Part shown: piece by piece, positions 1,631-49,342 of the stretch | How the letters are laid out: each line of letters starts with the position of its first letter | Numbering within the stretch: the first letter of the stretch is position 1 | Source: an uncultured Bacteroidales bacterium | Lineage (GTDB): Bacteria > Bacteroidota > Bacteroidia > Bacteroidales > Muribaculaceae | NCBI GenBank assembly: GCA_902776955.1 | Contig: CACYSG010000009.1 | Location: forward strand, 1-54,977 | Length of the DNA: 54,977 nucleotides | Direction: 5' to 3' | The notes under the pieces: generated by a model | What the model was told of the DNA's origin: nothing | What the model saw: the letters and a program-made list of their open reading frames with translations, nothing else | Database searches by the model: none | Translations under genes and position numbers: made by a program

Positions 1631-1772
1631 TAGTTTAGAGTTTAGAGATAAAAGATAAGAGATAAAAGATAAAAGATAAAAGATAAAAGATAAAAGATAA
1701 AAGATAAAAGTTAATAGTTAATAGTTAAGAGTTAAGAGTTAAGAGTTAAGAGTTAATAGTTAAAAGATAATA
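1631..1772 (+). repeat. Intergenic heptamer repeat array before cbiET
   Basis: Low-complexity spacer. It holds TTTAGAG units, then about seven copies of AGATAAA/AAAGATA, then AGTTAAG and AGTTAAT units. All have a 7-base period and each carries TAA or TAG. No gene fits here. The same repeat families occur before several other B12 genes. Confidence 0.85.
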
Positions 1773-3082: not shown

Positions 3083-4858
3083 ATGCCAAAGATAGCCGTC
3101 ATCAACATCAGCGAGGAAAGTAGGCAACTGGCGCTCGACCTGGAATTCGACTTGCAGGCTCGCCCCATCAAACGGGCCGACGTGAGCAAAAATTGGGACA
3201 AGTTTGACGCTTTTATCTTTATCGGCGCGATGGGCATCTGTGTCCGCACGATTGCGCCCTTGGTCAAGGACAAACACGAGGATCCCGCCGTCGTCTGTGT
3301 GGACAGCTTGGGCGTCCACGCCGTTTCGGTACTTTCGGGCCATGTGGGCGGTGCCAACGATTTGACCCGCCGTGTGGCAGCCATACTGGGTGCCGAACCC
3401 GTGATTACGACCCTGAGCGACAACGCGGGACTGTGGGCGCTGGACACGCTGGAAGAACGCTTCGATTGGCCCATCGCTAGCGAGGACGACATGAATGCCT
3501 GCATCTTTGCTTTTGTCAACCGCAAACCCACGGCCTTGTTTATGGAGGTGCGTGACGAAGGTACCGATTATCTGGAGAAGACCCTTCCCAACCACGTCAC
3601 CATCATCAACGACCTCAGCGAAGCCGACCCCATGAAATACCGTTTGCTCATCATGGTGACGCCCTACAGCCATGACTATCCTTTCGGCTTGCTGACACTG
3701 CATTTCGTGCCTATGGTGGGCACCATAGGTTTCGGTTTGGCTCATCATCCCAAGGATTACGAATTCATCTATGACCAGATGGACGAGGCATTGGCACGTT
3801 GGGGCATCCTGCCCTGTGCCTGCCGTTACTGCACGATTGACGTGAAGGCCGACGAGCCGTTTGTCGAATTGCTGAGAGAAAGAGACTGCGAGAATGTTGA
3901 ATTTTTCACGGCCGAACAGTTGGCTGCTGTCGAGGTGCCTAACCCGAGTGACACGGTGGCCAAGCACGTGGGCACGCCCAGCGTGTGCGAGGCGGCGGCC
4001 ATCCTGGGTTCCAATCACGGCAAACTGATTGTTCCCAAAATCAAAGGCAAGAATTTTACTGTCGCTCTGGCCATCGACCATCAATACCTGCGTGACCAGC
4101 ATGGACACATCGAGATTGTGGGTGCCGGACCCGGTGACCCCGACCTGGTATCGGTTAGAGGTCGCAAGATGCTGGAACGTGCCGACCTGATTCTTTACGC
4201 AGGCTCACTTGTGCCGCGTGAGTTGACCCTGTGCGCCAAGCCCGGCGCCGTCGTTCGCAGTTCGGCAGGGATGAACCTGGAGGAGCAGTGCGCGTTGATG
4301 AAGGAGTTCTACGACAAGGGAAGATTCATCGTGCGGCTCCACACGGGCGACCCGTGCATCTTCGGGGCAATTCAGGAACAGATGGCATTCTTTGACCAGC
4401 ATGGGATGCATTACCACATCACGCCGGGCATCTCGTCATTCCTTGCCGCTGCCGCCGAGTTGCGCAGCCAGTTCACCATCCCCGAGCGCACCCAGACCAT
4501 CATCCTCACCCGCGGCGAGGGCCGCACGCCCATGCCCGAGAAGGAGCAGCTGCACCTGCTGGCCCGCAGCCAGAGCACGATGTGCATCTTCCTGAGCGCC
4601 GCCATCGTCGATGACGTGCAGCGGGAACTGCTCATGGAATACCCCGAGGATACGCCCGTCGCCGCCTGCTATCACCTCACCTGGCCCGACCAGCGCATCT
4701 ACCGCGGCGTACTCAAGGACCTGGCCAAGATTGTCCACGACAACAACCTCACCTTGACCACAATGCTCGTCGTGGGCGAAGCCATCGACAACCGCAAGGG
4801 CCTGTCAGAACTCTACAACAAACATTTCACGCATCTCTACCGACAAGGGGAGAAATAG
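3083..4858 (+). CDS. Fused cobalt-precorrin-5A hydrolase (CbiG) and precorrin-4 C11-methyltransferase (CbiF/CobM)
   Basis: Residues 1 to about 335 are CbiG, which opens the ring-A lactone with loss of acetaldehyde and marks the anaerobic route; GAMGICVRTIAP and LSGHVGGAN are clear CbiG motifs. From about residue 342, GAGPGDPDLVSV begins CbiF, the C11 methyltransferase, with YAGSLVP, RLHTGDP and TPGISSF. The two domains act in consecutive steps (C11 methylation, then lactone opening). ATG 3083 (MPKIAVI) is preferred to a GTG at 3071. Downstream lies a 135-base heptamer spacer. Confidence 0.93.
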   Translation: MPKIAVINISEESRQLALDLEFDLQARPIKRADVSKNWDKFDAFIFIGAMGICVRTIAPLVKDKHEDPAVVCVDSLGVHAVSVLSGHVGGANDLTRRVAAILGAEPVITTLSDNAGLWALDTLEERFDWPIASEDDMNACIFAFVNRKPTALFMEVRDEGTDYLEKTLPNHVTIINDLSEADPMKYRLLIMVTPYSHDYPFGLLTLHFVPMVGTIGFGLAHHPKDYEFIYDQMDEALARWGILPCACRYCTIDVKADEPFVELLRERDCENVEFFTAEQLAAVEVPNPSDTVAKHVGTPSVCEAAAILGSNHGKLIVPKIKGKNFTVALAIDHQYLRDQHGHIEIVGAGPGDPDLVSVRGRKMLERADLILYAGSLVPRELTLCAKPGAVVRSSAGMNLEEQCALMKEFYDKGRFIVRLHTGDPCIFGAIQEQMAFFDQHGMHYHITPGISSFLAAAAELRSQFTIPERTQTIILTRGEGRTPMPEKEQLHLLARSQSTMCIFLSAAIVDDVQRELLMEYPEDTPVAACYHLTWPDQRIYRGVLKDLAKIVHDNNLTLTTMLVVGEAIDNRKGLSELYNKHFTHLYRQGEK

Positions 4859-4993
4859 TTTCTAGTCCCTAGTCCCTAGTTTCTAGTTGCCATCCGGACT
4901 CTAGCTTTCAGAAGCCAAAAACTAAGGACTAGGGACTAGGGACTAGAAACTAGGGACTAGAAACTAGGGACTAGAAACTAGAAACTAAAGACT
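4859..4993 (+). repeat. Heptamer repeat spacer before cobK-cbiD, with an inverted first part
   Basis: The first 30 bases or so read CTAGTCC/CTAGTTT. After a short unique stretch (4889-4915), CTAGGGA/CTAGAAA units read in the opposite sense up to the ATG. The two parts can pair into a long hairpin. The sense-oriented part touches the start codon of cobK-cbiD. Confidence 0.85.
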
Positions 4994-6751
4994 ATGATAC
5001 TCGTTTTTGGTGGAACGACTGAGGGCCGCATTGCGGCTAAGGTGCTCGAGGAATCGGGGGCCGAATTTTTCTATTCCACCCGAAGCGATACGCAAGACAT
5101 CCAACTCGTTCATGGCCGCCACGTCACTGGCGCGATGGAAGTGCCCCAGATGGTCGCTTTTTGCCAAGAGCATGATATCCGTCTCCTGATTGATGCCGCC
5201 CATCCGTTTGCCGTTAATCTGCACCGCAATATTGTTGACCTTGCGGCCCAAACAGGCCTTCCCGTCATCCGCTATGACCGCATCTATCCGCCCCATGACG
5301 AGGGCCTCGTCTGGTGCAAGGATTATGGCGATGCCATTCGGCAATTAGAGCAGCATGGCATCAGCAGATTATTGGCGCTCACCGGGGTCAATACCATTGC
5401 TCGACTGCGTGACTACTGGCAAGAGCATGAGTGCTGGTTCCGCATCCTGAAACGAGAGGAGTCGCTGACAGGGGCACAGAAGGCCGGCTTTCCTGCCGAC
5501 CGCCTCGTTTACTACGAGAAGGATGATACCGCTGCCCTGATTGAAAAGTTACATCCCCAAGCCATTGTCACCAAGGAGAGCGGAGTGAGCGGCGGTTTTG
5601 ATGAAAAAGTTGAGGCGGCCCGGCAAGCGGGTGTCAAGGTCTTTGTCGTCAAGCGGCCCGACTATCCCGTCTCCCCCGGGGGCAGCGTTGAGCACGTCAA
5701 CGGCCCTCACGGCCTGCGCCGCATGGTAGAGCGACTTTTGCCCGAGTTTTATCCCCTGCACAGCGGGTTGACGACAGGCACCTGTGCAACGGCTGCCGCC
5801 ATCGCCGCCACGCGACGGCTGTTGTCGGGAGAGACGCCAGCCTCGGTGCCCGTCATCTTGCCCGATGGCGAGACGATAGATGTTGAGGTGACCTATGGTG
5901 ACGGCTATGCTGCCGTATTCAAGCAAGCTGGCGATGACCCCGATGTGACCAACGGTATTGAGATACGCGCTCATGTTGAGCCTAGCGACCGTTTTGAGAT
6001 TTGCGGGGGCGAAGGCGTTGGCCGATTTACCGTGCCAGGGTTTGATTTTCCGCCGGGCGAACCCGCCATCAACAAGGCGCCGCGTCAGATGCTGCGCGAC
6101 AACATCAAGGAAAATGTGCGCATCACCATTTCGGTTCCCGAGGGCGCAGAAATTGCCCGTCGCACGTTCAACCCGCGCCTGGGCATCGAGGGCGGCATCA
6201 GCATCATCGGGGTTTCGGGCATAGTAAAACCCTTCAGCGAGGAGGCCTTTATCAGCAGCATCCGCAAGTGCATGCAGGTCGCCAAGGCATCGGGCAGCTA
6301 CCGCGTGGTCATCAACAGCGGCGGCAAGAGTGAGCGCTTTGTAAAAGCGCAATACCCCGACCTGCCGCAGCAGGCGTTTGTGGAATACGGGAATTACATC
6401 GGCGAGACCTTGGCCATCGCCCATGAACTCGGCATCAAGAACGTCACGATGGGCGTGATGCTGGGCAAAGCGGTCAAACTCGCGGCCGGCAACCTCGACA
6501 CCCACAGCCGCCTCACCACGATGGACAAAGATTTCGTGATGACGATGCTCCACGAGGCGGGCATTGACATCGACATCAGCGACCTTACCCTCGCCCGCGA
6601 ACTGTGGGAGAGAATACCTCAAGAAAAGCTCCAGGATTTCGCCGCCGTCGTCATCAACCATTGCGCCCGCTACTGCGCGCCCCTACTCCCCAACGGCCAC
6701 CTCACCCTCCTCCTCATCACCGACACCGGCACCATTTTCAAACAAAAATAA
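4994..6751 (+). CDS. Fused precorrin-6A reductase (CobK/CbiJ) and cobalt-precorrin-5B C1-methyltransferase (CbiD)
   Basis: Residues 1 to about 245 are CobK/CbiJ, the NAD(P)H-dependent reductase, with the Rossmann start ILVFGGTTEGR and the family motif DAAHPFA. From about residue 254, SGLTTGTCATAAA opens CbiD, the C1 methyltransferase of the anaerobic pathway, followed by GVSGIVKPFSE and VTMGVMLGKAVKLAAG. The 585 residues fit two complete domains. The last codons (TGTIFKQK) are duplicated about 2 kb downstream as TGTIFKQQ plus stop, see the direct repeats. CbiD acts before CobK, so the fusion order reverses the step order. Confidence 0.93.
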   Translation: MILVFGGTTEGRIAAKVLEESGAEFFYSTRSDTQDIQLVHGRHVTGAMEVPQMVAFCQEHDIRLLIDAAHPFAVNLHRNIVDLAAQTGLPVIRYDRIYPPHDEGLVWCKDYGDAIRQLEQHGISRLLALTGVNTIARLRDYWQEHECWFRILKREESLTGAQKAGFPADRLVYYEKDDTAALIEKLHPQAIVTKESGVSGGFDEKVEAARQAGVKVFVVKRPDYPVSPGGSVEHVNGPHGLRRMVERLLPEFYPLHSGLTTGTCATAAAIAATRRLLSGETPASVPVILPDGETIDVEVTYGDGYAAVFKQAGDDPDVTNGIEIRAHVEPSDRFEICGGEGVGRFTVPGFDFPPGEPAINKAPRQMLRDNIKENVRITISVPEGAEIARRTFNPRLGIEGGISIIGVSGIVKPFSEEAFISSIRKCMQVAKASGSYRVVINSGGKSERFVKAQYPDLPQQAFVEYGNYIGETLAIAHELGIKNVTMGVMLGKAVKLAAGNLDTHSRLTTMDKDFVMTMLHEAGIDIDISDLTLARELWERIPQEKLQDFAAVVINHCARYCAPLLPNGHLTLLLITDTGTIFKQK

Positions 6752-6936
6752 CAACACCAATCAAACAACCGCGCTCCTTAATCAAACAACTTGAACAACG
6801 ATAAACAACCAAGACAACTTTATTTTTTTATTATGTTGTTGAGGTTGTGTTGAGAAAATCCTGATGTGGTATCAGGGGGACGGATCTTCAGTCCGAAAAA
6901 TGTGGACATTTTTCATCCAGAAGAGCCGTCCCCTTT
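6723..6936. repeat. Direct repeat copy 1, left flank of the repeat-protein gene
   Basis: This copy spans the last 29 bases of CbiD coding sequence, a CAAC-rich/GTTG-rich inverted repeat (about 6769-6858) and a GGACGG...CCGTCC hairpin (about 6877-6933). Nearly the same sequence recurs at 8724-8960. Differences are a few substitutions, one tandem duplication of a 21-base unit in copy 2, and a changed hairpin loop. Confidence 0.9.
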
Positions 6937-6992
6937 TCGCGCGCTTGCCTAAAAAGACTTTCTATCCAGTGAGAGCACGGGTGCCATCAGCT

Positions 6993-7120
6993 GGGACGGT
7001 TCTAATGATGCGGTAAGCGAAGCGGCGCTATCAGTTAGAACCGTCCCAATGATGCACCGCCCTCCATAACCAGAAAATCTCACATGTGTAATTACCATCA
7101 CTTCTCTGCTTTAATGGCGG
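6993..7120. repeat. Dispersed hairpin element, copy A
   Basis: A 13-bp perfect stem (GGGACGGTTCTAA pairing with TTAGAACCGTCCC, outer ends 6993 and 7047) is followed by about 73 bases of conserved tail. Almost the same 128-base sequence occurs at 34969-35107. It has no coding capacity and looks like a small non-autonomous or REP-like element. Confidence 0.85.
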
Positions 7121-7143
7121 CTTCGCGTGACAGAAATGACAAC

Positions 7144-7173
7144 GGGTGTCACCACGCTGTTGTGGCGGCACCC
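7144..7173 (-). terminator. Possible hairpin terminator downstream of the repeat-protein gene
   Basis: Arms at 7144-7155 and 7162-7173 (GGGTGTCACCAC and GTGGCGGCACCC) pair with two imperfect positions. It lies 55 bases beyond the stop of the minus-strand gene. There is no clear T run, so the call is weak. Confidence 0.35.
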
Positions 7174-7228
7174 GGTAATATCAGAATATCTTATCCTTGC
7201 GCAGTTTCAGCCCATTAGAATAGGGGCA

Positions 7229-8485
7229 TCACCAGGGACGAATAGTGTCGATTGGGGGGTCTAACAGACCGCCAGGACGGCCACCCTGGATTTCGATGCC
7301 GCTGACATCGGTCAGCTTTGAGATGCTTCCGACGCCGGAATGTTCAGTGATAGTGCCGAAACGGCCTTTACCTTTGCCATCATTGTCTCCATCGCCTTCG
7401 TCATCACCACCGTTAGGCTTCATACTCCACGGGCGAATGGTGTCGATTGGGGGTTCTAACAGACCGCCGGGACGGCCACCCTGGATCTCGATGCCGCTGA
7501 CATCGGTCAGCCTTGAGATGCTTCCGACGCCGGAATGTTCAGTGATAGTGCCGAAACGGCCTTTACCGTTGCCATCATTGTCGCCATCGCCTTCGTCATC
7601 ACCACCATTAGGCTTTATACTCCAGGGACGAATGATATCGATTGGGGGTTCTACCAGACCGCCAGGACGGCCACCCTGAATCTCGATGCCGCTGACATCG
7701 GTCAGCTTTGAGATGCTTCCGACGCCAGAATGTTCAGTGATAGTGCCAAAGCGACCTTTACCGTTGCCATCGTTGTCTCCATCGCCTTCGTCTCCACCGC
7801 CATCAGGCTTTATACTCCAGGGACGAATGATATCGATTGGGGGCTCTAACAGACCGCCGGGACGGCCACCCTGAATCTCGATGCCGCTGACATCGGTCAG
7901 CTTTGAGATGCTTCCGACGCCGGATTGTTCAGTGATAGTACCAAAGCGGCCTTTACCGTTGCCATCGTCGCCATCGCCTTCGTCACCACCGGCATCAGGC
8001 TTTATGCTCCACGGACGAATGATGGGTTCTGTCCAATCGCCAGGACGGCCACCCTGGATCTTGATGCCGCTGACATCGGTCAGCCTTGAGATGCTTCCGA
8101 CGCCGGATTGTTCAATGATAGTACCAAAGCGGCCTTTACCGTTGCCATCATTGTCTCCATCACCTTCATCATCACCACCGTTAGGCTTGACGGGCGCCGA
8201 AAGAGTCGGCACATTCCAGCCGCCAGCGCAAGTAGCAACGCTAAAGCCATAAGTCATATCGTCGATGGTAACATCATCCAGCCCCATCAAGAGGTCATAT
8301 TCCTCGGCATCAAGGCCGAAGCCGTCAATACCATAGTAACCCATCAGCAATTCTGCCTGAGTCACGCAGTCGGTACGCGAGGAGTTCACCTTGCGTCCCT
8401 TGCCGTTGTCAGCACCAGGTGCCGCCATCATGCCAAGGACGGCTAAAGAGCTGACAATCGTCATAAAAAATCTGTTCGTCTTCAT
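7229..8485 (-). CDS. Secreted protein of five 65-residue repeats with acidic Asp/Gly loops
   Basis: The 418-residue product starts with a signal peptide (MKTNRFFMTIVSSLAVLGMM). A unique region of about 70 residues follows (two Cys, many acidic residues), then five repeats. Each repeat is FGTITEHSGVGSISKLTDVS, then GIEIQGGRPGG, EPPID, RPWSIKP, and an acidic DGDNDGNGKGR loop. The DNA period is 195 bases; the repeat nearest the N-terminus is 12 bases shorter. The protein stops right after IRPW, in the middle of a unit. DxDxDG-like runs suggest calcium binding, as inference only. I do not recognise the family. The gene is flanked by long direct repeats and interrupts the B12 locus, which points to recent insertion. 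Confidence 0.8.
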   Translation of the reverse strand: MKTNRFFMTIVSSLAVLGMMAAPGADNGKGRKVNSSRTDCVTQAELLMGYYGIDGFGLDAEEYDLLMGLDDVTIDDMTYGFSVATCAGGWNVPTLSAPVKPNGGDDEGDGDNDGNGKGRFGTIIEQSGVGSISRLTDVSGIKIQGGRPGDWTEPIIRPWSIKPDAGGDEGDGDDGNGKGRFGTITEQSGVGSISKLTDVSGIEIQGGRPGGLLEPPIDIIRPWSIKPDGGGDEGDGDNDGNGKGRFGTITEHSGVGSISKLTDVSGIEIQGGRPGGLVEPPIDIIRPWSIKPNGGDDEGDGDNDGNGKGRFGTITEHSGVGSISRLTDVSGIEIQGGRPGGLLEPPIDTIRPWSMKPNGGDDEGDGDNDGKGKGRFGTITEHSGVGSISKLTDVSGIEIQGGRPGGLLDPPIDTIRPW

Positions 8486-8597
8486 AATTAGTTTAGATTT
8501 TAATAAACAATGATACTTTTGTGATGATTTAACCCTAGCTTAGATGTGAATAATTGCCATAGGGGCAACACGTCAAGATATTCGCTCATCACACTCA

Positions 8598-8605
8598 CAA
8601 AGGTA
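8598..8605 (-). promoter_or_regulatory. Probable -7 element of the repeat-protein gene
   Basis: On the minus strand this reads TACCTTTG, a match to TAnnTTTG, 113 bases before the start codon. A good TTTG at -33 spacing is not present. Confidence 0.45.
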
Positions 8606-8723
8606 ACGGCCCTGAAACAAACAAAAAAGTGAATATCGCTTTTTTTACAGGAAATGAGAGAAAAAAGTTGAAAACTGTATAATCTTTTTACAGTTTTACC
8701 CTGACGGCCATCTATTCATCCCT

Positions 8724-8960
8724 ACACCGGCACCATTTTCAAGCAACAATAACAACACAAATCAAACAACCGCGCTTCTTAATCAAACAACCGCGCTTCT
8801 TAATCAAACAACTTGAACAACGATAAACAACCAAGACAACTTTATTATTTTTTATTATGTTGTTGAGGTTGTGTTGAGAAAATCCTGATGTGGTATCAGG
8901 GGGACGGATCTTCAGTCCGAAAAATGCACGCATTTTTCATCCAGAAGAGCCGTCCCCTTT
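8724..8960. repeat. Direct repeat copy 2, right flank of the repeat-protein gene
   Basis: Second copy of 6723-6936. It starts with a 29-base remnant of the CbiD 3' end that would read TGTIFKQQ and a stop, and contains two tandem copies of a 21-base CAAACAACCGCGC-type unit where copy 1 has one. It keeps the GGACGG/CCGTCC hairpin. Because it holds a CbiD remnant, it must derive from the cobK-cbiD 3' end. The 54 bases between it and btuC include a GTTGTTGAGGTTG stretch. Confidence 0.9.
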
Positions 8961-9014
8961 CCGCACTATTTACTCTTAATTGTTGTTGAGGTTGTTACTG
9001 TTGTTTGAAATAAA

Positions 9015-10046
9015 TTACTCGTAGGAGGTTTTGCGACGGCGGTAGAGGACGTAGATGATGATGGGGGCGCCGATGAGGGCGGTGACGCTGTTGACGGGCA
9101 TGGCACCTTCAAAGCCGGGGGCGCGGGCAAGCAGGTTGCACACGAGGGCCAAGGCCGCTCCACACAGGGCGGTGGCGGGCATCAGTTTCCAGTGGTCGCT
9201 GGTGCGGAACAGGCCGCGAGCCAGATGGGGCACGGCCATTCCGATGAACATGATGGGGCCGCAATAGGCGGTGACGATGGCGACCAGTACGCCCGAGCAG
9301 ACGATAATCCAGGTGCGGGCCCGCTTGACGTTGACGCCCAGGTTGGCGGCATAACGGTCACCCAGCAACATGGCATTTAACCGCTTTACCAGCAGGAAAC
9401 TCAAGGGCAGCAGGATGCACATGAGCACGACAAAAAGTATCATCTGGTCACCCGAGACGCGCGAGAACGAGCCAAGTCCCCACACCACAAAAGCCTTCAC
9501 ATCCTCCTCGGGGCTGAGGAATTTCAAGACGCCGATGATGGCGGTGGCGAGGTAACCGATCATCACGCCGATAATCAGCAGGGTGACGTTGCCCTTGACC
9601 TTTCCCGAAATCCACACAATCAGCATCATCACGGCGATGGCACCGATGATGGCGGCCACCGAGACCGCCGCGTCGCCCAGGTAACCCAGGCTGCTCAGCG
9701 CCACGCCGCCCAACTGCCCCGACAGCAGCACGACAAAGGCCACACCCAAGCTGGCACCGTTGGAGATGCCCAAGATGGACGGGCCCGCCAGCGGGTTATG
9801 GAAAATGGTCTGCATCATCAGGCCGCTCACGGCAAGTCCCGCTCCCGCCACGATGGCGGTGAGCACCTGCGGTAAACGCGAGCTGAGGATGATATTGGTC
9901 CAGATTTCGCTCTCGCTGCCCTGGCCGATAAGGATACGGCAGATGTCGGCCACCGGTATCTCGACCGAGCCGATAAACAGGTTGACAATCATCATCACGA
10001 TAATCGCCACCACAAGGGCCAACATCAAGGGAAGCGCGCGTCTCAT
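9015..10046 (-). CDS. btuC: Iron-siderophore/cobalamin-type ABC transporter permease (FecCD/BtuC family)
   Basis: An integral inner-membrane permease of 343 residues, rich in hydrophobic segments (about nine to ten). Motifs GAGLAVSGLMMQTIFHNPLAGPSILG and GPIMFIGMAVPHLAR are typical of the BtuC/FhuB/FecCD family. With the lipoprotein upstream (10153-11253) it would import cobalamin or a precursor such as cobinamide; the B12 context favours that over siderophores but does not prove it. No ATPase subunit (BtuD) lies next to it. A heptamer repeat spacer directly precedes the start. Confidence 0.88.
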   Translation of the reverse strand: MRRALPLMLALVVAIIVMMIVNLFIGSVEIPVADICRILIGQGSESEIWTNIILSSRLPQVLTAIVAGAGLAVSGLMMQTIFHNPLAGPSILGISNGASLGVAFVVLLSGQLGGVALSSLGYLGDAAVSVAAIIGAIAVMMLIVWISGKVKGNVTLLIIGVMIGYLATAIIGVLKFLSPEEDVKAFVVWGLGSFSRVSGDQMILFVVLMCILLPLSFLLVKRLNAMLLGDRYAANLGVNVKRARTWIIVCSGVLVAIVTAYCGPIMFIGMAVPHLARGLFRTSDHWKLMPATALCGAALALVCNLLARAPGFEGAMPVNSVTALIGAPIIIYVLYRRRKTSYE

Positions 10047-10152
10047 AATTATCTCTTTAGTTTCTAGTCCTTAGTTTCTAGTCCCTAGTCCCTAGTTTCT
10101 AGATATTCTAGATTTTCTAGATGCTCTAGAACTTCTAATTCCTAATTTCTAA
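10047..10152 (-). repeat. Heptamer/TCTAGA repeat spacer before btuC
   Basis: Read on the minus strand, the order is AATTAGG-type units, then TCTAGA units of 9-base period, then ACTAGGG and ACTAGAA units up to the btuC ATG. This is the same order as before cobC (12294) and cobT (13493) on the plus strand. Confidence 0.85.
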
Positions 10153-11253
10153 TTAATTCAGCAGGTGGTAGAAGGTGGGCTGGTAGTCTTTCTCGACCAG
10201 GTCGGGATGGAAGATGGCGACAAAGTCCTTCAGCAGCACGTCGGGCTTGACGGGAGCGATTTCGTAATAGGGCGTCTGCTTCATGTTGCAGTAGATGACC
10301 TTTTTCTCCTTAAAGGCCTTGAACATCTCGTTGCGGGGCTCACTGGCCTTCAGCGCCTCGTAGGAGAAATCTCCCTGATAACTGTTGAGGATGCGCCAGT
10401 AGTCGGCGTTGGCCGAGAGGGCATACATCTTCTCGAACTCCAGGTCCTCGCCCGAGGTCTCGTCGTCGTTGATGACATAGTCGGCACCCGCGTCGCGGAA
10501 GATTTGCGCCAGGTAGTTCTTGCCGCCCACGGCATGCCAGTTGCCATAGTGCATCTCGCCGCTGGTGACGGTGGGGCGTTGCTCGACCTTGGCGGCCTTA
10601 TCTTTCAATTCGTTGTAACGGCTCTCGATGCCGGCAAAAATCTCGGCGGCTTCTTTCTCCTTGCCGATGAACATGCCGATGAACTTGATCCACTCGGCCT
10701 GTCCCAGCGGGTCAAGTTCCTTGTAACCCAGGTGGGGCACGAGCGTGATGCCTATTTCCTTGATGGCGTCATAACCGCCGCGCTTGGACGGCGAGATGAA
10801 GATAACGTCGGGGTTGGCGGCCATGACCACCTCGGGGTCAAATTCGCCCTCCATGCCGATTTTGACGATGCGTCCATCCTTCACGCGCGCCTTGATATCC
10901 TCGTTGAAGAGGTTCTTGGTGCTGGTGATGCCCTTCACCACGTCGTGAGCATCAAGGATGGTGAAATTGGACAGTTGCAGCGAGGTCATGCAGATGGTGC
11001 GCTCGATGGGTACCTTGACCTTGACGTAGCCCTCGGGAACCGCCACATCGGCATCATGAACCAGGGCAAAATGGTCTTTCTTTCCCACATCAACCAGCCG
11101 AATATCGGCCGAATCCCTTACGCTGAATCCCGTGGCATACTTCACGGTCACTTCTTCCATCTGATCGGTGCCCGGTTTTGACTGCTTTTCGCCCTGTGAC
11201 GAACAGGCGCAGAACAGCACCAAAACGGCAATAATTCCAAAAAATTTCTTCAT
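10153..11253 (-). CDS. btuF: ABC transporter substrate-binding lipoprotein (BtuF/FecB-like)
   Basis: The 366-residue product has an SPII signal ending LFCAC, with lipidation at that Cys, so it is a lipoprotein. The central part carries the two-lobe periplasmic-binding signature: VPIERTICMTSLQLSNFTIL, MAANPDVIFISPSKRGGYD and EWIKFIGMFIGKEKEAAEIF. It delivers substrate to the permease encoded 106 bases downstream. Similar Bacteroidota proteins are annotated as iron-complex or cobalamin binding; the neighbours favour corrinoids. Promoter element TACCTTTG (minus strand) lies just upstream. Confidence 0.85.
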   Translation of the reverse strand: MKKFFGIIAVLVLFCACSSQGEKQSKPGTDQMEEVTVKYATGFSVRDSADIRLVDVGKKDHFALVHDADVAVPEGYVKVKVPIERTICMTSLQLSNFTILDAHDVVKGITSTKNLFNEDIKARVKDGRIVKIGMEGEFDPEVVMAANPDVIFISPSKRGGYDAIKEIGITLVPHLGYKELDPLGQAEWIKFIGMFIGKEKEAAEIFAGIESRYNELKDKAAKVEQRPTVTSGEMHYGNWHAVGGKNYLAQIFRDAGADYVINDDETSGEDLEFEKMYALSANADYWRILNSYQGDFSYEALKASEPRNEMFKAFKEKKVIYCNMKQTPYYEIAPVKPDVLLKDFVAIFHPDLVEKDYQPTFYHLLN

Positions 11254-11278
11254 TTCTTCATTTATCTGATTTATGCTA

Positions 11279-11286
11279 CAAAGGTA
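11279..11286 (-). promoter_or_regulatory. Probable -7 element of btuF-btuC
   Basis: Minus strand TACCTTTG, 26 bases before the btuF start; a TTTG (11303-11306) lies 16 bases further upstream, slightly short of the usual spacing. Confidence 0.5.
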
Positions 11287-11365
11287 CTACTTTTTTAGGG
11301 ACCAAACCGCATAAAAATCACCAAAAAACTAAGAACTTGGGGACAAGAAACTAGAAACTTCTTTG

Positions 11366-11373
11366 TACCTTTG
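11366..11373 (+). promoter_or_regulatory. Probable -7 element of cobS
   Basis: TACCTTTG ends four bases before the cobS ATG at 11378, so the message would be nearly leaderless. A few CTAGAAA heptamer bases lie just upstream at 11350-11359. Confidence 0.5.
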
Positions 11374-11377
11374 CACT

Positions 11378-12154
11378 ATGGAAAATTCAACTGTAAAGAC
11401 GCGGTGGTATGACAGCATTTGGGCGGCGTTGATTTTCTTCACGAGGCTGCCTTTTTGGCGACTCTATCAGCCCCCGCAGGCGAGTTACAAGACGGTTGTC
11501 GAGTATTGGCCGCTAGCCGGGTGGCTCACAGGTGGCGCGATGGCCGCGACGCTCTACTTCGGCAGCATGGTGTTGCCTCATGCCGTGGCCGTGATTGCCG
11601 CGATTGCCGTGCGGCTGATGATCACCGGGGCCTTGCATGAGGACGGCCTGGCCGACTTCCTGGACGGCTTTGGCGGCGGTGGCGACCGCGACCGCATCCT
11701 GGCCATCATGAAGGATTCCCACATCGGCACCTACGGCGTGCTGGGGCTAATCATCTACATGCTGCTGTTGGGCACCACGCTCTACAGCCTGCCCGTGGCC
11801 GTGGCGGCGCTTGTCATCCTGGCTGCCGATCCGTTCTCCAAGATGGTCACGAGCCAACTGGTGTCGATGCTTCCCTATGCCCGACGCGAGGAAGAGGCCA
11901 AGAACAAAACCGTTTACCGTAAACCCACCCTAGCCGCTGGCCTGCTCATGTCGCTGCAAGGCCTGTTGCCGATGATATTGATGATTTGGCTGACAGGCAT
12001 CAGCTGGTACCTTATCGTCTGCTTGCCTGTGGTGGTGATGTACTTCCTGTATCTTCTCATCCTGCGCAAGATTCACGGATACACGGGCGACTGCTGCGGC
12101 GCCGTCTGCCTGCTCGTGGAACTGACAGTCTACCTGGTAGCGGTTTCAAGTTAG
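11378..12154 (+). CDS. cobS: Adenosylcobinamide-GDP ribazoletransferase (cobalamin synthase)
   Basis: A membrane enzyme joining adenosylcobinamide-GDP and alpha-ribazole (phosphate), the last assembly step. The 258 residues match the family length. FFTRLPFWR near the N-terminus, MITGALHEDGLADFLDGFGGG with the conserved acidic residues, and KDSHIGTYGVLGL are diagnostic. Four or more hydrophobic segments follow. The ATG at 11378 is preferred to an in-frame TTG at 11363 that lies upstream of the -7 box. It is convergent to nothing and divergent from btuF. Confidence 0.93.
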   Translation: MENSTVKTRWYDSIWAALIFFTRLPFWRLYQPPQASYKTVVEYWPLAGWLTGGAMAATLYFGSMVLPHAVAVIAAIAVRLMITGALHEDGLADFLDGFGGGGDRDRILAIMKDSHIGTYGVLGLIIYMLLLGTTLYSLPVAVAALVILAADPFSKMVTSQLVSMLPYARREEEAKNKTVYRKPTLAAGLLMSLQGLLPMILMIWLTGISWYLIVCLPVVVMYFLYLLILRKIHGYTGDCCGAVCLLVELTVYLVAVSS

Positions 12155-12293
12155 GAATGAGGAATGAGGAATTAGAAATGAGGAATTAGAAATTAGAAAT
12201 TAGGAGTTCTAGAGCATCTAGAATATCTAGATTATCTAGAATATCTAGAGCATCTAGAAACTAGGGACTAGGGACTAGAAACTAAAAACTAAA
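12155..12293 (+). repeat. Composite repeat spacer between cobS and cobC
   Basis: In order: GAATTAG/GGAATGA units, then TCTAGA units of 9-base period (TCTAGAGCA, TCTAGAATA), then ACTAGGG and ACTAGAA units up to the ATG. It is rich in the usually rare tetramer CTAG. No gene fits. Confidence 0.88.
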
Positions 12294-12824
12294 ATGGAAA
12301 TCATTTTGATAAGACATACCAGCGTTGATGTTCCCAGGGGGACGTGCTACGGGCAGACTGATGTGCCCGTGCGGGAGACCTTTGAACAAGAGGCAGAGTT
12401 GACCCGCCGTTCGCTCGAGCAGTTCTTGCCGTTTGACAAGGTGTTCTCCTCGCCCTTGACGCGCGCCCGCAAACTCGCGGCCTATTGCGGCTACCCCGAT
12501 GCCGAGACCGACGCGCGCTTGCTGGAGATGAACATGGGCGAGTGGGAAATGCAGCTGTACGAAGAAATCCAGGACCCGCACCTGCAGGAATGGTACGACG
12601 ATTATATCCACCAACCCACGACAGGCGGCGAGAGTTTCCAGCAACAATACCAGCGGGTGGCGGCATTCCTTGACGAACTCAAGGCACAGCCCTATCGGCG
12701 TGTGGCCATCTTTGCCCACGCGGGAGTGCTCATCAGCGCGGGACTCTACGGCGGGCTGTATGCCTGGAAGAACGCTTGGGAAAATCTGCCCGACTACGGG
12801 GACTATATTGTAATTAGGAATTAG
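12294..12824 (+). CDS. cobC: Alpha-ribazole phosphatase-like histidine phosphatase
   Basis: Removes the phosphate from alpha-ribazole-5'-phosphate or from the cobalamin phosphate. The 176-residue protein has the phosphohistidine motif LIRHTSVD at its start, followed by GTCYGQTDVPV typical of CobC, and FAHAGVL with the second catalytic His. The stop codon and the last residue or two (...VIRN) come from the GGAATTA repeat that follows, so the C-terminus has been reset by the spacer repeat. Confidence 0.88.
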   Translation: MEIILIRHTSVDVPRGTCYGQTDVPVRETFEQEAELTRRSLEQFLPFDKVFSSPLTRARKLAAYCGYPDAETDARLLEMNMGEWEMQLYEEIQDPHLQEWYDDYIHQPTTGGESFQQQYQRVAAFLDELKAQPYRRVAIFAHAGVLISAGLYGGLYAWKNAWENLPDYGDYIVIRN

Positions 12825-12868
12825 GAATTAGGAATTAGGAATTAGGAATTGGCATCCGCATTCTGACA
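12808..12868 (+). repeat. GGAATTA heptamer array between cobC and cobU
   Basis: Five to six perfect tandem GGAATTA units from about 12812 to 12850. The first TAG in frame is the cobC stop. A degenerate tail follows to the cobU start at 12882. Confidence 0.85.
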
Positions 12869-12881
12869 ACTGAAAACTGAC

Positions 12882-13391
12882 ATGAGTAAAATCATACTGA
12901 TAACAGGCGGGCAACGCTCGGGTAAAAGCAGGCATGCCGAGGAACTGGCGCTAAGCCTTGCCGACAACCCCGTCTATGTGGCCACGGCCCACGTGTGGGA
13001 TGAGGAATTCCGTGAGCGGGTGCGACGCCATCAGGAGCGACGCGGCCCGCAGTGGACCAATATCGAGGAGGAGAAACAGCTGAGCAGGCACGACCTGACA
13101 GGGCGTGTGGCGGTCATCGATTGCGTGACGCTGTGGCTCACCAACTTCTTTTTTGAGCTCAAGGACGTGGACAAGACCTTGCAAACCGTCAAGAGGGAGT
13201 TTGACGACTTCACCGCCCATGACGGCACTTTTATCTTTGTGACCAACGAAATAGGCAGCGGCGGCGTGAGCGTGGATGCAGTGCAACGGCAATTCACCGA
13301 CCTGCAAGGCTGGATGAACCAGTACATCGCCAGCCGGGCCGACGAAGTTATCCTCATGGTCTCGGGAATCCCGGTAACAGTAAAGAGTTAA
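12882..13391 (+). CDS. cobU: Adenosylcobinamide kinase / adenosylcobinamide-phosphate guanylyltransferase
   Basis: Phosphorylates adenosylcobinamide and transfers GMP to it. The 169-residue enzyme opens with the P-loop ITGGQRSGKSRHAEE, then YVATAHVWDEEFRERVRRHQERR (family motif around the guanylylated His), IDCVTLWLTN and FVTNEIGSGGV. The C-terminus (PVTVKS plus TAA) runs into AGTTAAG heptamers, which supply the stop codon. Confidence 0.93.
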   Translation: MSKIILITGGQRSGKSRHAEELALSLADNPVYVATAHVWDEEFRERVRRHQERRGPQWTNIEEEKQLSRHDLTGRVAVIDCVTLWLTNFFFELKDVDKTLQTVKREFDDFTAHDGTFIFVTNEIGSGGVSVDAVQRQFTDLQGWMNQYIASRADEVILMVSGIPVTVKS

Positions 13392-13492
13392 GAGTTAAGA
13401 GTTAATAGTTCTAGAAAATCTAGATAATCTAGAATATCTAGAGCATCTAGAAACTAGGGACTAGGGACTAGAAACTAGAAACTAAAGAAAAA
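13386..13492 (+). repeat. Composite repeat spacer between cobU and cobT
   Basis: AGTTAAG units, then TCTAGA units of 9-base period, then ACTAGGG/ACTAGAA units up to a short A-rich run before the cobT ATG. Same module order as the spacer before cobC. Confidence 0.88.
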
Positions 13493-14536
13493 ATGAAGCA
13501 ATTCAATATACAACACACCGACAAGTCGCTGGAACAGAGTATCCAGCAGAAAATCGACCATCTGAATAAACCCAAAGGGTCGCTGGGACGGCTGGAGGAG
13601 CTGGCCTTGCAGATTTGCCTCATCCAGCACACCCTGTCGCCGTCTCTCAACCACCCCTGCCACTTGCTGCTGGGTAGTGACCACGGCATCGAGCGCGAGG
13701 GCGTGAGCGTCTCGCCACGCGAGGTCACCTGGCAACAGATGATTAACTTCACCCGTGGCGGTGGAGGCGTGAACATGTTCTGCCGCCAGCATGGCTTCAA
13801 GTTGCGCATCGTGGATACGGGCGTGGACTATGACTTGACCCAAGTTGAGGGCATCATCGACCGCAAAATCGCCCGTGGCACCCGCAATTTCCTTTACGAG
13901 CCCGCCATGAGCGAGGAGGAATTTGACCGCGCGATACAGACGGGCTGCGAACTCGTGGACGACTGCATTGCCGAGGGCTGCCAAGTGCTGTGCGTCGGCG
14001 AAATGGGCATTGCCAACACCTCGCCGTCAAGCATCTGGATGAGCCTGTTCGGCAACATCCCGCTGGACGAGAGCATCGGCGCCGGAGCGGGCCTTGACAA
14101 CCCCGGCATCCAGCACAAGCGCGAAATTCTCGCCCAAGCCTTGCTGCATTACCGCGAGACGATGGAAAACACGACCGAGAACGCCATCCGCTATTTTGGC
14201 GGTTTTGAGATGGTGACGGCCATCGGGGCAATGTTGCGGGGAGCCGAGAAACATCTTGTCGTGCTGGTTGACGGCTTCATCATGACGGCCTGTGCCATCG
14301 CCGCCATCCAACTCTACCCTGCCGCCCAGGATTACATGATTTTCGCCCACTGCGGCGACGAGAGCGGCCACCGTCGCATGCTCGACATCGTCCACGCCAA
14401 GCCCATCCTCAACCTGGGCCTGCGCCTCGGCGAGGGAACCGGCGCCCTCTGCGCCTACCCCATCATCGCCTCCTCGGTCCACATGATCAACGAGATGAAC
14501 AACTTCGACACCGCCCACATCACCAAATACTTCTAA
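13493..14536 (+). CDS. cobT: Nicotinate-nucleotide--dimethylbenzimidazole phosphoribosyltransferase
   Basis: Makes alpha-ribazole-5'-phosphate, activating the lower ligand of B12. The 347 residues match the family. LNKPKGSLGRLEELA, GSDHGIEREGVSVSP, EMGIANTSPSS and the catalytic LRLGEGTGA near the C-terminus are all present. The stop overlaps the stop of cbiB on the other strand by four bases (14533-14536). No bluB or bza lower-ligand gene is in the window. Confidence 0.94.
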   Translation: MKQFNIQHTDKSLEQSIQQKIDHLNKPKGSLGRLEELALQICLIQHTLSPSLNHPCHLLLGSDHGIEREGVSVSPREVTWQQMINFTRGGGGVNMFCRQHGFKLRIVDTGVDYDLTQVEGIIDRKIARGTRNFLYEPAMSEEEFDRAIQTGCELVDDCIAEGCQVLCVGEMGIANTSPSSIWMSLFGNIPLDESIGAGAGLDNPGIQHKREILAQALLHYRETMENTTENAIRYFGGFEMVTAIGAMLRGAEKHLVVLVDGFIMTACAIAAIQLYPAAQDYMIFAHCGDESGHRRMLDIVHAKPILNLGLRLGEGTGALCAYPIIASSVHMINEMNNFDTAHITKYF

Positions 14537-15459
14537 TATATTGCCACCACAACAAGCACCAGGGCGAGCATGAGGAGTTCTGCGAGGCGGTTGATGCGGA
14601 CGGCGGTGCGCATGTCCCGAGTGGTCAACTCACGGTCGTTCTCGCCGATGAAGGGTTTGTCGAAGAGTTCGCCAAAGTAGATGTGCGGGCCGCCGAAACG
14701 GCAGTTGAGGATGCCGGCCAGGGCTGCCTCGGGGTAGCCGCTGTTGGGACTGGCGTGACGACGTCCGTTTTTCCACACGAATTTCAAGAGTGACAATTTT
14801 CCCGAGGCGATGACCATCAGCAGGGCGGTCAGTCGGGCGGGGATAAAGTTAGCCACATCGTCGATGCGGGCGGCCCAGCAGCCGAAGTCCTTGTAGCGCT
14901 CGGTGCGGTAGCCTATCATCGAGTCGAGGGTATTGACCATCTTATAGGCCAGCATGCCGGGCGTTCCCAGCAATGCGAACCAAAACAGCGGGGCTATCAC
15001 GCCGTCGCTCAGGTTCTCGGCAAGGGTCTCGAGGGCGGCGGTGCGCACCTCCTGGGCCGTCAGTTGGGACGTGTCGCGGCCCACAATGCGAGCGACCTGA
15101 TGGCGTCCCTCGTCCAGCGAACGGTCTAGCGCCAAAAAGACCTCGCGCACCTCGCGGATGAGCGTCGTTCCCGCCAAACAGTAGAAAATGATGATGGTGT
15201 CCAGGATGAGCCACAAAACCATATTGGGAACCAGCCGTTTTAATCCCCAGACGATGAAAAGCACCATCAAAATCAGACAGATGGCCATCACTGCACCCTT
15301 GGCCATGCGATGTGACCCATGGTTGAGGCGGTGCTCACCCCACGCAATCATTTTGCCGAACCACACGATGGGATGCGGCAACCGTGACGGGTCACCGAAG
15401 ATGAAATCCAGCAACCATCCCAGCAGCAACGGCAATATTAATATCAAAATCTCTTTCAT
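14533..15459 (-). CDS. cbiB: Adenosylcobinamide-phosphate synthase (CbiB)
   Basis: A membrane enzyme that attaches the aminopropanol (phosphate) side chain to adenosylcobyric acid. The 308 residues carry the family motif FIFGDPSRLPHPIVWFGKMI near the N-terminus, NLSDGVIAPLFWFALLG, and RRHASPNSGYPEAALAG. Several hydrophobic segments are seen. First of its own minus-strand run only in position: it is the last gene of the run cbiA-pduO-cbiP-cobD-cbiB. A short heptamer spacer precedes it. Confidence 0.93.
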   Translation of the reverse strand: MKEILILILPLLLGWLLDFIFGDPSRLPHPIVWFGKMIAWGEHRLNHGSHRMAKGAVMAICLILMVLFIVWGLKRLVPNMVLWLILDTIIIFYCLAGTTLIREVREVFLALDRSLDEGRHQVARIVGRDTSQLTAQEVRTAALETLAENLSDGVIAPLFWFALLGTPGMLAYKMVNTLDSMIGYRTERYKDFGCWAARIDDVANFIPARLTALLMVIASGKLSLLKFVWKNGRRHASPNSGYPEAALAGILNCRFGGPHIYFGELFDKPFIGENDRELTTRDMRTAVRINRLAELLMLALVLVVVAIY

Positions 15460-15497
15460 CAGTTTTTAGTCCCTTGTCCCTAGTCCCTAGTTTTTAA
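15460..15497 (-). repeat. Short heptamer spacer overlapping the cobD stop
   Basis: On the minus strand it reads ACTAGGG, ACTAGGG, ACAAGGG, ACTAAAA and then the cbiB ATG. The first TAG is the stop codon of cobD, and the last cobD codons look repeat-derived. Confidence 0.8.
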
Positions 15498-16479
15498 ATT
15501 CGTGTAATTCGTAGTTCCTTATTGCGGCGACGAGGGCGTCGTTTTCGGCAGAGGACTGTGTGGCGATGCGGAAGTGGTGTGGCGTGAGGCCCGTAAAATT
15601 GGAGGCATCGCGGATGAGGATGCCGTGCTCTCGCGCCAGGTATTCCTTCAACTGGGCAGCTGTGGCTTGGCGGATGGTACACAGGAAGAAATTGGTCTGA
15701 GTTTTCATCGTTTCGATACCGTCCAACTCATCAAGGGCTTGACGCAGGCGCTCGGTTTCCGCCAGATAGGAGTCCAGGTCGGGGATGGCCTTCAGATTGT
15801 TATCAATGAGCCACTTGCCCGCCTCAAGCGACAGGGCGTTGATGGCCCAAGGGCGGTATTGCTCGCGCAGTCGGCCGATAATCGCCGGAGAAGCGGTGAC
15901 ATAGCCCAACCGCAATCCAGGCACGGCATAGCGTTTGGTCATCGAGTGAAGCAGGATGATGTCGTCACGCTTGGCGGCATCGGCAGGTTGTAGCAAGTGA
16001 GCCATCGTGTAGTCTTCGTAGGATTGATCCACGACCAAGAGGCGATGACCGTCAGCCAACCTGAAGACCTCATCAGCCTCCAGGACACTGCCCGTCGGGT
16101 TATTGGGGTTGCACAGCCAGCACACAGCTCCATCTTCTTGCTCCCGGTAGCCAAACACGCGGCAAGCGTCCTCATATTCACGGAACGTGGGCTGCATCAC
16201 ATGGCAAGTGCCCATTTGCCTAAAGGCCTGGGCAATCAGGTAGATGGCATCGACGGCGCCGCTGGTGACCAGCACCTCATCAGGGCTGATACCGCACTGC
16301 CAGGCGATTCTCTGCTCCAGCGAAGCGGCCGAGGGTTCGGGATAGGACCGCACAACGTCCATGCGGGTACACAGGTAGGCAGAGAGCGCGCTCAGGTCAG
16401 TCCCGTTATAGATGTTGGAACTGAAGTTCATCGTGATATTGTCGTAACGATACAGGTCGTCACCGTGTCCTTCAATCAT
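15487..16479 (-). CDS. cobD: Threonine-phosphate decarboxylase-like aminotransferase (CobD)
   Basis: A PLP enzyme that makes (R)-1-amino-2-propanol phosphate for the nucleotide loop. EGHGDDLYRYDN and NFSSNIY are typical of CobD, CNPNNPTG is the class I/II aminotransferase motif, and HSMTKRYAVPGLRLGY holds the PLP lysine. 330 residues is slightly short of the usual 350-365. It overlaps the end of cbiP by 8 bases, implying translational coupling. The C-terminal ...YELHEFKN looks derived from a gaattac-type spacer repeat. Confidence 0.9.
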   Translation of the reverse strand: MIEGHGDDLYRYDNITMNFSSNIYNGTDLSALSAYLCTRMDVVRSYPEPSAASLEQRIAWQCGISPDEVLVTSGAVDAIYLIAQAFRQMGTCHVMQPTFREYEDACRVFGYREQEDGAVCWLCNPNNPTGSVLEADEVFRLADGHRLLVVDQSYEDYTMAHLLQPADAAKRDDIILLHSMTKRYAVPGLRLGYVTASPAIIGRLREQYRPWAINALSLEAGKWLIDNNLKAIPDLDSYLAETERLRQALDELDGIETMKTQTNFFLCTIRQATAAQLKEYLAREHGILIRDASNFTGLTPHHFRIATQSSAENDALVAAIRNYELHEFKN

Positions 16480-28225: not shown

Positions 28226-28281
28226 TTGGACCAATTGGGCTAATAGGACTAATTGGACAAATTTGACCAATTGGTCCAATC
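28212..28281 (+). repeat. Nine-base period repeat after tatD
   Basis: About seven degenerate units of CTAATTGGA/CCAATTGGG with a 9-base period begin in the last codons of tatD and run to about 28280. The arms ATTGG and CCAAT alternate, so the array can fold on itself. Confidence 0.7.
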
Positions 28282-41430: not shown

Positions 41431-41553
41431 AAGAGTTAAGAGATAAGAGATAATAGTTAATAGTTATAGGGGATCTAGAATATCTAGAAAATCTAGAAAC
41501 TAGGGACTAGGGACTAGAAACTAGAAACTAGGGACTAGAAACTAACAACTACC
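41431..41553 (+). repeat. Composite heptamer spacer between cmk and ispH
   Basis: AGTTAAG/AGATAAG units, then TCTAGA units of 9-base period, then ACTAGGG and ACTAGAA units up to the ispH start. This is the same module order as in the B12 locus, 28 kb away, so the element is not specific to B12 genes. Confidence 0.88.
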
Positions 41554-49302: not shown

Positions 49303-49342
49303 ATTCTTCCCATCGCCAAGCAATACCGAAAAACGCTCTCCC

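Follow-up and report, generated by a model that had tools for sequence, protein, structure and literature searches.

Ordered heptamer and nonamer arrays in operon-internal spacers of a ruminant-gut Bacteroidales bacterium and its relatives: candidate interchangeable translational punctuation

The contig CACYSG010000009.1 (54,977 nucleotides (nt), assembly GCA_902776955.1) of an uncultured ruminant-gut Bacteroidales bacterium, here called the window, carries arrays of tandem 7-base and 9-base units in spacers between genes, among them genes of vitamin B12 synthesis. The arrays form two modules, one anchored to the stop codon of the upstream gene and one to the start codon of the downstream gene, with the 9-base units in between, and the spacers often differ between sister species. 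The explanation favoured here, to which a probability of about one half is given, is that these are a main class of interchangeable spacer cassettes between co-directional genes in one clade of ruminant-gut Bacteroidales, propagated by copying and retained because they punctuate translation; both function and mechanism are what we infer from sequence.

Repeat units and where they lie

The window is contig C9 of a draft genome of 3.23 Mb in 123 contigs. Together with 60 further stretches of this genome (59 around listed pattern matches, one arbitrary) it makes up the own-genome set, which holds 92 array regions, a number that was drawn from the matches listed and thus stands for at least 92 in the genome. 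A second, cobT-picked set consists of the window plus 29 relatives' loci (L061-L089), selected via cobT and not via arrays; the relatives come from a CobT-protein scan of genome contigs (best 80 of 365 loci). L061-L089 are loci of metagenome-assembled genomes with CobT 90-95% identical, their record titles give Bacteroidales, Muribaculaceae, Prevotellaceae or Porphyromonadaceae, and several name ruminant hosts. L092-L095, with CobT 81-83% identical, are the outgroup. Genes were called with a home-made codon-usage caller that takes the most upstream ATG as the start, and cassette classes were assigned by our own regular expressions.

The units are the heptamers ACTARRR (C), AGWTAAD (T) and RRAATTA (E) and the TCTAGANNN nonamer (X). 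Exact matches in the own genome, with the count for the pattern read backwards in brackets, number 43 (0) for ACTAGGGACTAGGG, 145 (0) for ACTAGRRACTAGRR, 196 (0) for AGWTAADx3 and 35 (0) for RAATTAGx3, and TCTAGANNNTCTAGA is found at 135 places (1). With counts of 35-196 against 0-1 in the control, the arrays are far above chance and genome-wide, so the link to B12 genes made in the original prediction is not supported, and a B12-specific leader was rejected.

Of the lags from 4 to 21 in the spacers of the window and the 29 relatives' loci, the only ones present are 7/14/21, 9/18 and, faintly, 15; shuffled spacers have none. By a strict rule, lag-7 arrays in the same loci make up 4.44% of the bases in co-directional spacers, 0.36% in divergent and 0 in convergent ones, and 0.000% of coding bases. 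In the co-directional spacers of the window and L001-L089, 95 heptamer types are repeated, with a stop on the sense strand in 82, on the antisense strand in 71 and on both in 65 (random heptamers of matched base composition: 0.50, 0.43 and 0.23). The claim that every 7-mer contains a stop, mostly on both strands, is nearly right: among types seen in three or more spacers a sense stop (TAA, TAG or TGA) is present in 34/35 and stops on both strands in 29/35, these 35 types being related and not 35 independent trials, but AGATAAA has no stop on the opposite strand.

The nonamer has a nearly fixed core, with an entropy of 0.12-0.51 bits at core positions versus 1.40-1.76 at the triplet, a comparison that favours the core, as units with up to two core mismatches were admitted. 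Most X triplets end in A (132/157), which gives the nonamer a bias towards TCTAGANNA when read in the direction of the genes. Separately, a GGCATCCGC / GCGGATGCC joint recurs at the ends of post-stop arrays and at some starts of pre-start arrays (L034, L055 and others), and L011 has a longer block in four copies with a ACTAGAAACTAGGG array within (1995-2198 and 7642-7875).

Order, orientation and anchoring

AGWTAAD and RRAATTA arrays mostly begin at the stop codon of the upstream gene, in convergent spacers too; ACTARRR arrays mostly finish just 5' of a start codon, and TCTAGANNN arrays lie in between. In the cobT-picked set the median distance is 5.5 nt from ACTARRR to the ATG, and -9.5 nt (AGWTAAD) and 3.5 nt (RRAATTA) to the upstream stop. 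Convergent spacers have no ACTARRR arrays in the cobT-picked set and two in the own-genome set.

The order AGWTAAD or RRAATTA, then TCTAGANNN, then ACTARRR, predicted to be nearly constant, is seen in 46/46 pairs in the own genome (per spacer: E before X 9, E before C 9, X before C 16, T before X 6, T before C 6; reversed 0). Beyond these pairs, RRAATTA precedes AGWTAAD in one spacer. The expected orientation bias is also present in the heptamer arrays: forward and inverted arrays in co-directional spacers stand at 40:8 for ACTARRR, 19:4 for AGWTAAD and 14:2 for RRAATTA in the own genome, and at 32:7, 22:1 and 12:1 in the cobT-picked set, where several of the seven inverted ACTARRR arrays are one shared post-stop array at the 3083-4858 | 4994 junction. 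Thus, the fixed order and gene-wise orientation that had suggested a single leader are real, but there are actually two modules, anchored to the stop and to the start.

Frame closure and the bases before ATG

As had been proposed, the arrays close reading frames. All three frames are closed within 30 nt of the stop in 57/77 spacers with a post-stop array (shuffles 19%), and in 45/305 spacers without one (shuffles 7%). Sixty AGWTAAD/RRAATTA arrays lie near a stop codon: 29 overlap it, with the stop in unit 1 (16 arrays), 2 (11) or 3 (2), and 31 begin after it.

At the other end of the spacer, ACTARRR units become poorer in G towards the ATG. The G share of RRR in units 1-4 from the ATG is 0.20, 0.42, 0.65 and 0.70 in 27 arrays of the own genome and 0.23, 0.33, 0.60 and 0.65 in 20 of relatives, with a Spearman correlation between G share and distance of 0.49 in both. 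Before the ATG in ACTARRR arrays, A is found at -3 in 45/55, at -6 in 42/55 and at -12 in 42/55, versus 147, 154 and 137 of 300 junctions without such arrays. The last ACTARRR unit ends in all seven registers relative to the ATG, and the A peaks are independent of this phase. In Flavobacterium johnsoniae, which initiates without Shine-Dalgarno (SD) sequences, A at -3, -6, -12 and -13 accompanies or raises initiation (Baez 2019, PMC6847099; this and the other papers cited are drawn on in excerpt).

Promoters, known RNAs and folding

The arrays sit, as far as their sequence context indicates, inside operons rather than at promoters, because TAnnTTTG is rare in array spacers (0/55 in relatives, 6/69 in the own genome) and common in divergent ones (43/45 and 30/31), as counted in slices that for minus-strand pairs take in 3 nt upstream and 12 nt downstream. 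A role as promoter element was rejected on the same count. Rfam gave no match at gathering score in the window, and a cobalamin riboswitch or other known RNA was dropped for it; ATG avoidance inside arrays was dropped too, CAT being about equally low.

Spacers with X arrays fold with a mean z of -3.7 (23 in the own genome) and -2.7 (29 in relatives), versus -0.9 (26) and -0.5 (42) in divergent spacers, all with minus-strand slices shifted by 9 nt. Folding is weak in spacers made up of heptamers alone (mean z -1.4 and median -0.76 for 21 spacers of relatives). A hairpin as the principle common to all cassettes was borne out in part only.

Spacer turnover among related species

Six junctions were followed. 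In the outgroup they are 4-nt or 16-nt overlaps or 1-nt gaps where readable; in the clade they are anything from an overlap to 240 nt. The junction 16472 | 15487 is an 8-nt overlap in 28/28 relatives read. Spacers were classed as heptamer/nonamer arrays, as families with AATAAATACAA, with GAGACGC, with GGCCTCGCC/CCGTGGCA or with GTAATTCG, as two others, or as none. On a 34-row tree of four joined genes, which comes from a short search and has 13/31 inner branches starred, the minimum number of class changes is 11, 10, 11, 15, 9 and 14; at 3083-4858 | 4994 this counts as a state (other46) a misread 628-nt stretch of L072 behind an interrupted upstream frame.

The sister pairs L061/L062 (about 0.045 changes per site apart) and L066/L069 (about 0.055) each differ in detailed class at 4/6 junctions (L066/L069 at three by coarse class), so a fixed leader for each gene, as originally envisaged, is not supported: sister species often have another spacer. 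Between btuF and btuC of L061/L062 the spacers are unrelated and the flanks differ by 0-4 per 45 nt; here, and between cobU and cobT of L066/L069, the genes are alike up to near the junction, the last codons excepted. The ends of the upstream proteins fall at almost the same residue, and their last codons differ and come from different spacers; across species CobU ends in VKS, IKEL or VK. Two non-B12 loci have a similar spread of spacers in the clade, 2-nt ones included.

A further observation at cobU-cobT is a spacer that is no array, contains TTGTATCGCC and has arm-like ends. It is common to L063, L069, L075, L077 and L080, species that the tree does not place as closest relatives of one another.

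Copying between loci and distribution across genomes

Window 12154, window 13391 and L037 have an X-C block of 51 nt in common without a single difference, and window 12154 and L037, on contigs C9 and C22, are identical over 61 nt. Three-unit strings common to own-genome X arrays number 6, versus 0.5 in pooled shuffles (largest 4) and 1.9 in within-array shuffles (largest 8); for C arrays they number 306, versus 150 (largest 208) and 160 (largest 207), respectively. From these identical blocks and shared strings, copying between loci seems to play a part. Neighbouring X triplets are identical in 18/149 cases versus 9.8% in within-array shuffles (largest shuffle 14.1%), which is within shuffle range and thus no clear mark of recent unit-by-unit growth. 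AGWTAAD neighbours are identical in 41/109 (37.6%) versus 28.8% shuffled, near the upper end of the shuffles and thus a slight mark of such growth; X, RRAATTA and ACTARRR neighbours are within the shuffled range.

ACTARRRx3 is found in 24/37 same-genus genomes (the own genome included), with none in the other 13, and in 1/24 genomes of other families. An independent assembly had been proposed as a check; the array types do recur in separately assembled genomes, those of related species and not the same genome. In an order-wide sample of 393 genomes, in which the own genome is the sole member of its genus, TCTAGANNNx3 occurs in four: the own genome (96), G271 (83), G417 (28) and G099 (1). TCTAGANNN arrays are absent from the five other genera of the own family in this sample. 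G271 and G417 belong to one genus of another family, two other genomes of which have no TCTAGANNNx3. In 15 stretches from these two (221 kb; five around listed matches, ten arbitrary), X arrays lie in four co-directional spacers and one convergent spacer, all within the five picked stretches, and touch or overlap a stop codon twice; other heptamers, e.g. ACAATTA, are in three co-directional spacers. L232 and L243 (G271) have their own ACAATTA-type heptamer arrays after stop codons, besides TCTAGANNN arrays.

A RAYT (REP-associated tyrosine transposase; Y1_Tnp, PF01797) was set aside as driver, since copy number does not appear to track the transposase: PF01797 is in 22/23 genus genomes searched, with nine matches and no ACTARRRx3 in G016, and one match and 103 ACTARRRx3 in G017. 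Viral stretches with TCTAGANNNx3 (27), ACTAGRRx3 (19) and AGWTAADx3 (96) were set aside as carriers. By eye (one match per stretch for the first two patterns, 11/96 for the third), most TCTAGA matches are unlike junction arrays and several resemble coding repeats.

Interpretation and alternatives

If the arrays are punctuation cassettes, the ancestral state would be a tight (overlapping or near-abutting) junction. Cassettes from a shared set, comprising heptamer and nonamer arrays or hairpin-like sequences, would have been copied into junctions, either through gene conversion or by some unknown mobile route; those that function as translational punctuation would be retained by selection. The post-stop module would supply or follow the upstream stop and shut all frames, releasing a read-through or slipped ribosome, and the pre-start module would end A-rich (A at -3, -6, -12), as SD-less Bacteroidota ribosomes prefer. 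The net effect would be to turn overlapping, translationally coupled genes into independently insulated and re-initiated ones.

Several observations weigh against this. Overlaps or 1-2 nt junctions remain in many clade species, so no cassette is essential, and L073/L076 and L080/L083 retain several spacers with small changes. Three L061/L062 junctions have 13-35 differing sites in the final 45 nt of the gene upstream, and downstream of cobC | cobU in this pair two bins contain 12 and 11 differences; imported flanks are thus possible at some swapped junctions. For AGWTAAD alone the stop lies in units 1, 2 and 3 in 11, 11 and 2 arrays, a spread which means that placement is not frame-exact. The match to the Flavobacterium positions is good but not exclusive, since A at -13 is weakly enriched (37/55 versus 154/300, p 0.04) and -1, -4, -7 and -10 are also A-rich. 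Leaders with ACTARRR arrays are no less structured than others (median -2.5, n=28, versus -2.7 kcal/mol, n=160, in pairs ending in ATG only, with minus-strand pairs lost). There is no excess sharing of unit strings for AGWTAAD, nor of three-unit strings in relatives. The nonamer, described in the original prediction as an oriented unit, is so in its triplet ends, but its arrays stand at 24 forward to 18 inverted, which is not significant, by a loose regular expression that can match both strands. By our calls, 7/92 array regions lie between co-directional genes and are inverted throughout (L012 2401, L018, L046 2515 and 8175, L049, L050, L059), and four more contain both orientations (window 4862, L003, L045, L046 4126). 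Loci and species are related, so that counts are not independent, and arrays that are rich in stops and mostly oriented could result from a survivorship filter by itself.

The last point leads to the alternative that deserves most weight, which is live though judged less likely than the cassettes: that the heptamers are neutral or selfish repeat DNA that spreads and shrinks by chance, order and orientation being leftovers of a filter in which the surviving copies are those that are intergenic, bear stops and leave the start codon usable. The patchiness of ACTARRRx3 (24/37 same-genus genomes, none in 13), the junctions without cassettes and the wholly inverted arrays are as this would have it, and BOX, RUP and SPRITE elements are read as parasitic in the excerpts of PMC3049150. 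However, such a tolerance filter does not predict the 46:0 order, the division into stop-bound and start-bound units, or the phase-independent A peaks at -3, -6 and -12.

A bolder version of the cassette explanation, which appears doubtful, has a dedicated, horizontally shared system writing or copying modular cassettes into operon junctions and so re-setting translational coupling gene by gene. It is suggested by the TCTAGANNN arrays in G271/G417 of another family that are missing from nearer genera, and by the free triplets around a fixed core with no clear neighbour-to-neighbour duplication in the own clade.

It is unlikely that the TCTAGANNN array is a multi-site element for a DNA- or RNA-binding protein, with the heptamer arrays as its flanks. 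The nearly fixed nonamer core with a free triplet, the 18/149 identical neighbouring triplets against 9.8% in shuffles and the presence of the array in another family would suit a binding element, but the arrays differ between sister species. Still less likely is a role as intercistronic hairpins, which would block exonucleases or adjust mRNA segments, with the arrays as one of several ways to form stems. TCTAGANNNTCTAGA is a direct and an inverted repeat at once, X spacers have the low folding z values given above, 4859-4993 contains a long inverted repeat, and several other cassettes are inverted-repeat-like by eye; however, heptamer-only spacers fold weakly, and because most X triplets end in A, facing triplets cannot fully pair and the stems are not perfected. 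Local replication slippage, as proposed for long simple sequence repeats, is very improbable: heptamers are cited as the commonest long repeats in many bacteria (PMC4679880, PMC4692102, in excerpt) and AGWTAAD neighbours are somewhat more alike than shuffled ones, but the same small set of units recurs at many loci, identical blocks lie on different contigs, and the likeness of neighbours in X, RRAATTA and ACTARRR arrays is within the shuffled range.

Relation to known repeats

No description of the unit order or of TCTAGA arrays in Bacteroidota was found in the open-licence literature searched, within which the nonamer, the rule of two anchors and the combination as a whole seem to be new. 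The STRR (short tandemly repeated repetitive) sequences of filamentous cyanobacteria comprise several heptamer types dispersed in one genome, as here. Pneumococcal BOX modules have a fixed order and variable copy number, and are not known to be stop-rich heptamers. The present arrays likewise have distinct modules in fixed order (46/46 pairs), a likeness drawn by description and not by sequence, and BOX elements are modular dispersed intergenic repeats according to the excerpts of PMC3049150.

A close counterpart is the TAACTGA heptamer, described as direct repeats in Beggiatoaceae, Cyanobacteria and five Bacteroidetes (MacGregor 2015, PMC4679880). Start-oriented heptamers are thus known in Bacteroidetes. 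The excerpted accounts of these repeats and of those in PMC4692102 do not describe the order, the nonamer or the exchange of spacers seen here. Both kinds of repeat are intergenic heptamers with forward-frame stops and patchy among relatives, a role in translation has been proposed for TAACTGA, and its copies in the main genome are mostly oriented to a nearby start codon (PMC4679880), as are ACTARRR arrays (32:7, median 5.5 nt to the ATG). As far as the excerpts go, TAACTGA repeats have one main unit, mostly short sets and no fixed series of unit types; the present arrays have different units after the stop and before the start, with a nonamer in the middle, and junction cassettes that vary between sisters. 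TAACTGA or any rotation of it is absent among the 35 heptamer types seen in three or more spacers.

The GGGAATC and GGGGAYT heptamers of Xanthomonas and Nostoc (Rehm 2015, PMC4692102, in excerpt, where heptanucleotides of Calothrix are also mentioned) are similar in lying between aligned ORFs (open reading frames), rarely between divergent ones, and on the coding strand at no more than 50 bp from stop codons; they are mostly transcribed where RNA-seq was examined. They differ in being G-rich and quadruplex-forming and in mostly adjoining the same genes in two related species, in stable surroundings. Among the 35 types here, sense-strand GGG occurs in ACTAGGG and AGGGTTT only, and four GGG units stand in a row in L024. 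Unrelated spacers between the same conserved flanking genes, as found here, are also the mark of intergenic region switching, or horizontal regulatory transfer (PMC5890482), which in the excerpted account concerns alleles within species, and here concerns operon-internal junctions between species and a shared set of repeats.

These operon-internal spacers appear to turn over faster than the adjoining genes, and their repeats look fit for punctuating translation in a phylum that initiates without SD sequences. The old puzzle of the role of bacterial heptamer repeats also gains a testable form. If confirmed, the junctions would offer one operon in a naturally occurring range of insulated and uninsulated forms in which to study the gain and loss of coupling, and a source of candidate intercistronic parts for Bacteroidota engineering.

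Arrays and adjoining genes in the window

All eight spacers listed in the original prediction do contain the units described, not each with the full series: 1631-1772 and 12808-12868 have only post-stop units of those named, and 15460-15497 has only ACTARRR. The arrays are as follows.

1646..1770, +: post-stop AGATAAA followed by AGTTAAG/T, some 18 units, behind the TP_methylase-CbiC fusion gene (230-1630)
4859..4890, -: reversed ACTARRR, reading TCCCTAG/TTTCTAG, directly after the stop codon of 3083-4858
4921..4993, +: pre-start ACTAGGG/ACTAGAA, reaching the ATG at 4994; in part an inverted complement of 4859-4890
10047..10096, -: pre-start ACTARRR, before the FecCD permease gene (9015-10046, -)
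10097..10130, -: TCTAGANNN nonamer array
10131..10152, -: post-stop RRAATTA, after the binding-protein gene (10153-11253, -)
12151..12205, +: post-stop GGAATGA/GGAATTA/RRAATTA, after cobS
12208..12259, +: TCTAGANNN array, 5.8 copies; its end and the next ACTARRR block make up the 61 nt in common with L037 on another contig
12260..12293, +: pre-start ACTARRR, before cobC
12812..12850, +: post-stop GGAATTA, overlapping the cobC stop
13386..13408, +: post-stop AGTTAAG, the first unit providing the Ser-stop of cobU
13410..13453, +: TCTAGANNN array
13453..13492, +: pre-start ACTARRR, before cobT
15460..15491, -: ACTARRR array, between 15487-16479 (-) and cbiB (14533-15459, -)
41434..41466, +: post-stop AGTTAAG/AGATAAG, after the cytidylate kinase gene
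41473..41497, +: TCTAGANNN array
41498..41551, +: pre-start ACTARRR, before the LytB (ispH) gene at 41554

The spacer 4859-4993 thus runs from reversed ACTARRR through a GCCATCCGG joint to forward ACTARRR, and the reversed orientation at this junction is kept in several relatives. Ten genes adjoining the arrays have Pfam matches: a TP_methylase-CbiC fusion, TP_methylase, a CbiG-TP_methylase fusion, FecCD permease, periplasmic binding protein, CobS, histidine phosphatase (taken as CobC), CobD/CbiB, LytB/IspH and cytidylate kinase.

The window also holds other repeats. An ORF at 7229-8485 (-) has about five 195-bp tandem repeats that are 90% alike (65-residue protein repeats), and this repeat-protein gene is flanked on both sides by stretches that are alike by eye (6760-6960 and 8750-8960, AACAACCGCGCT... 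and GGGGACGGATCTTCAGTCCG). A 9-bp array of AATTGGACT at 28215-28274 (6.7 copies) is not among the junction units. At 49308-49677 there are 58-bp tandem repeats with a GACGCAAAATCTTGCGTC palindrome, and palindromes of this kind are seen in junction spacers of some relatives.

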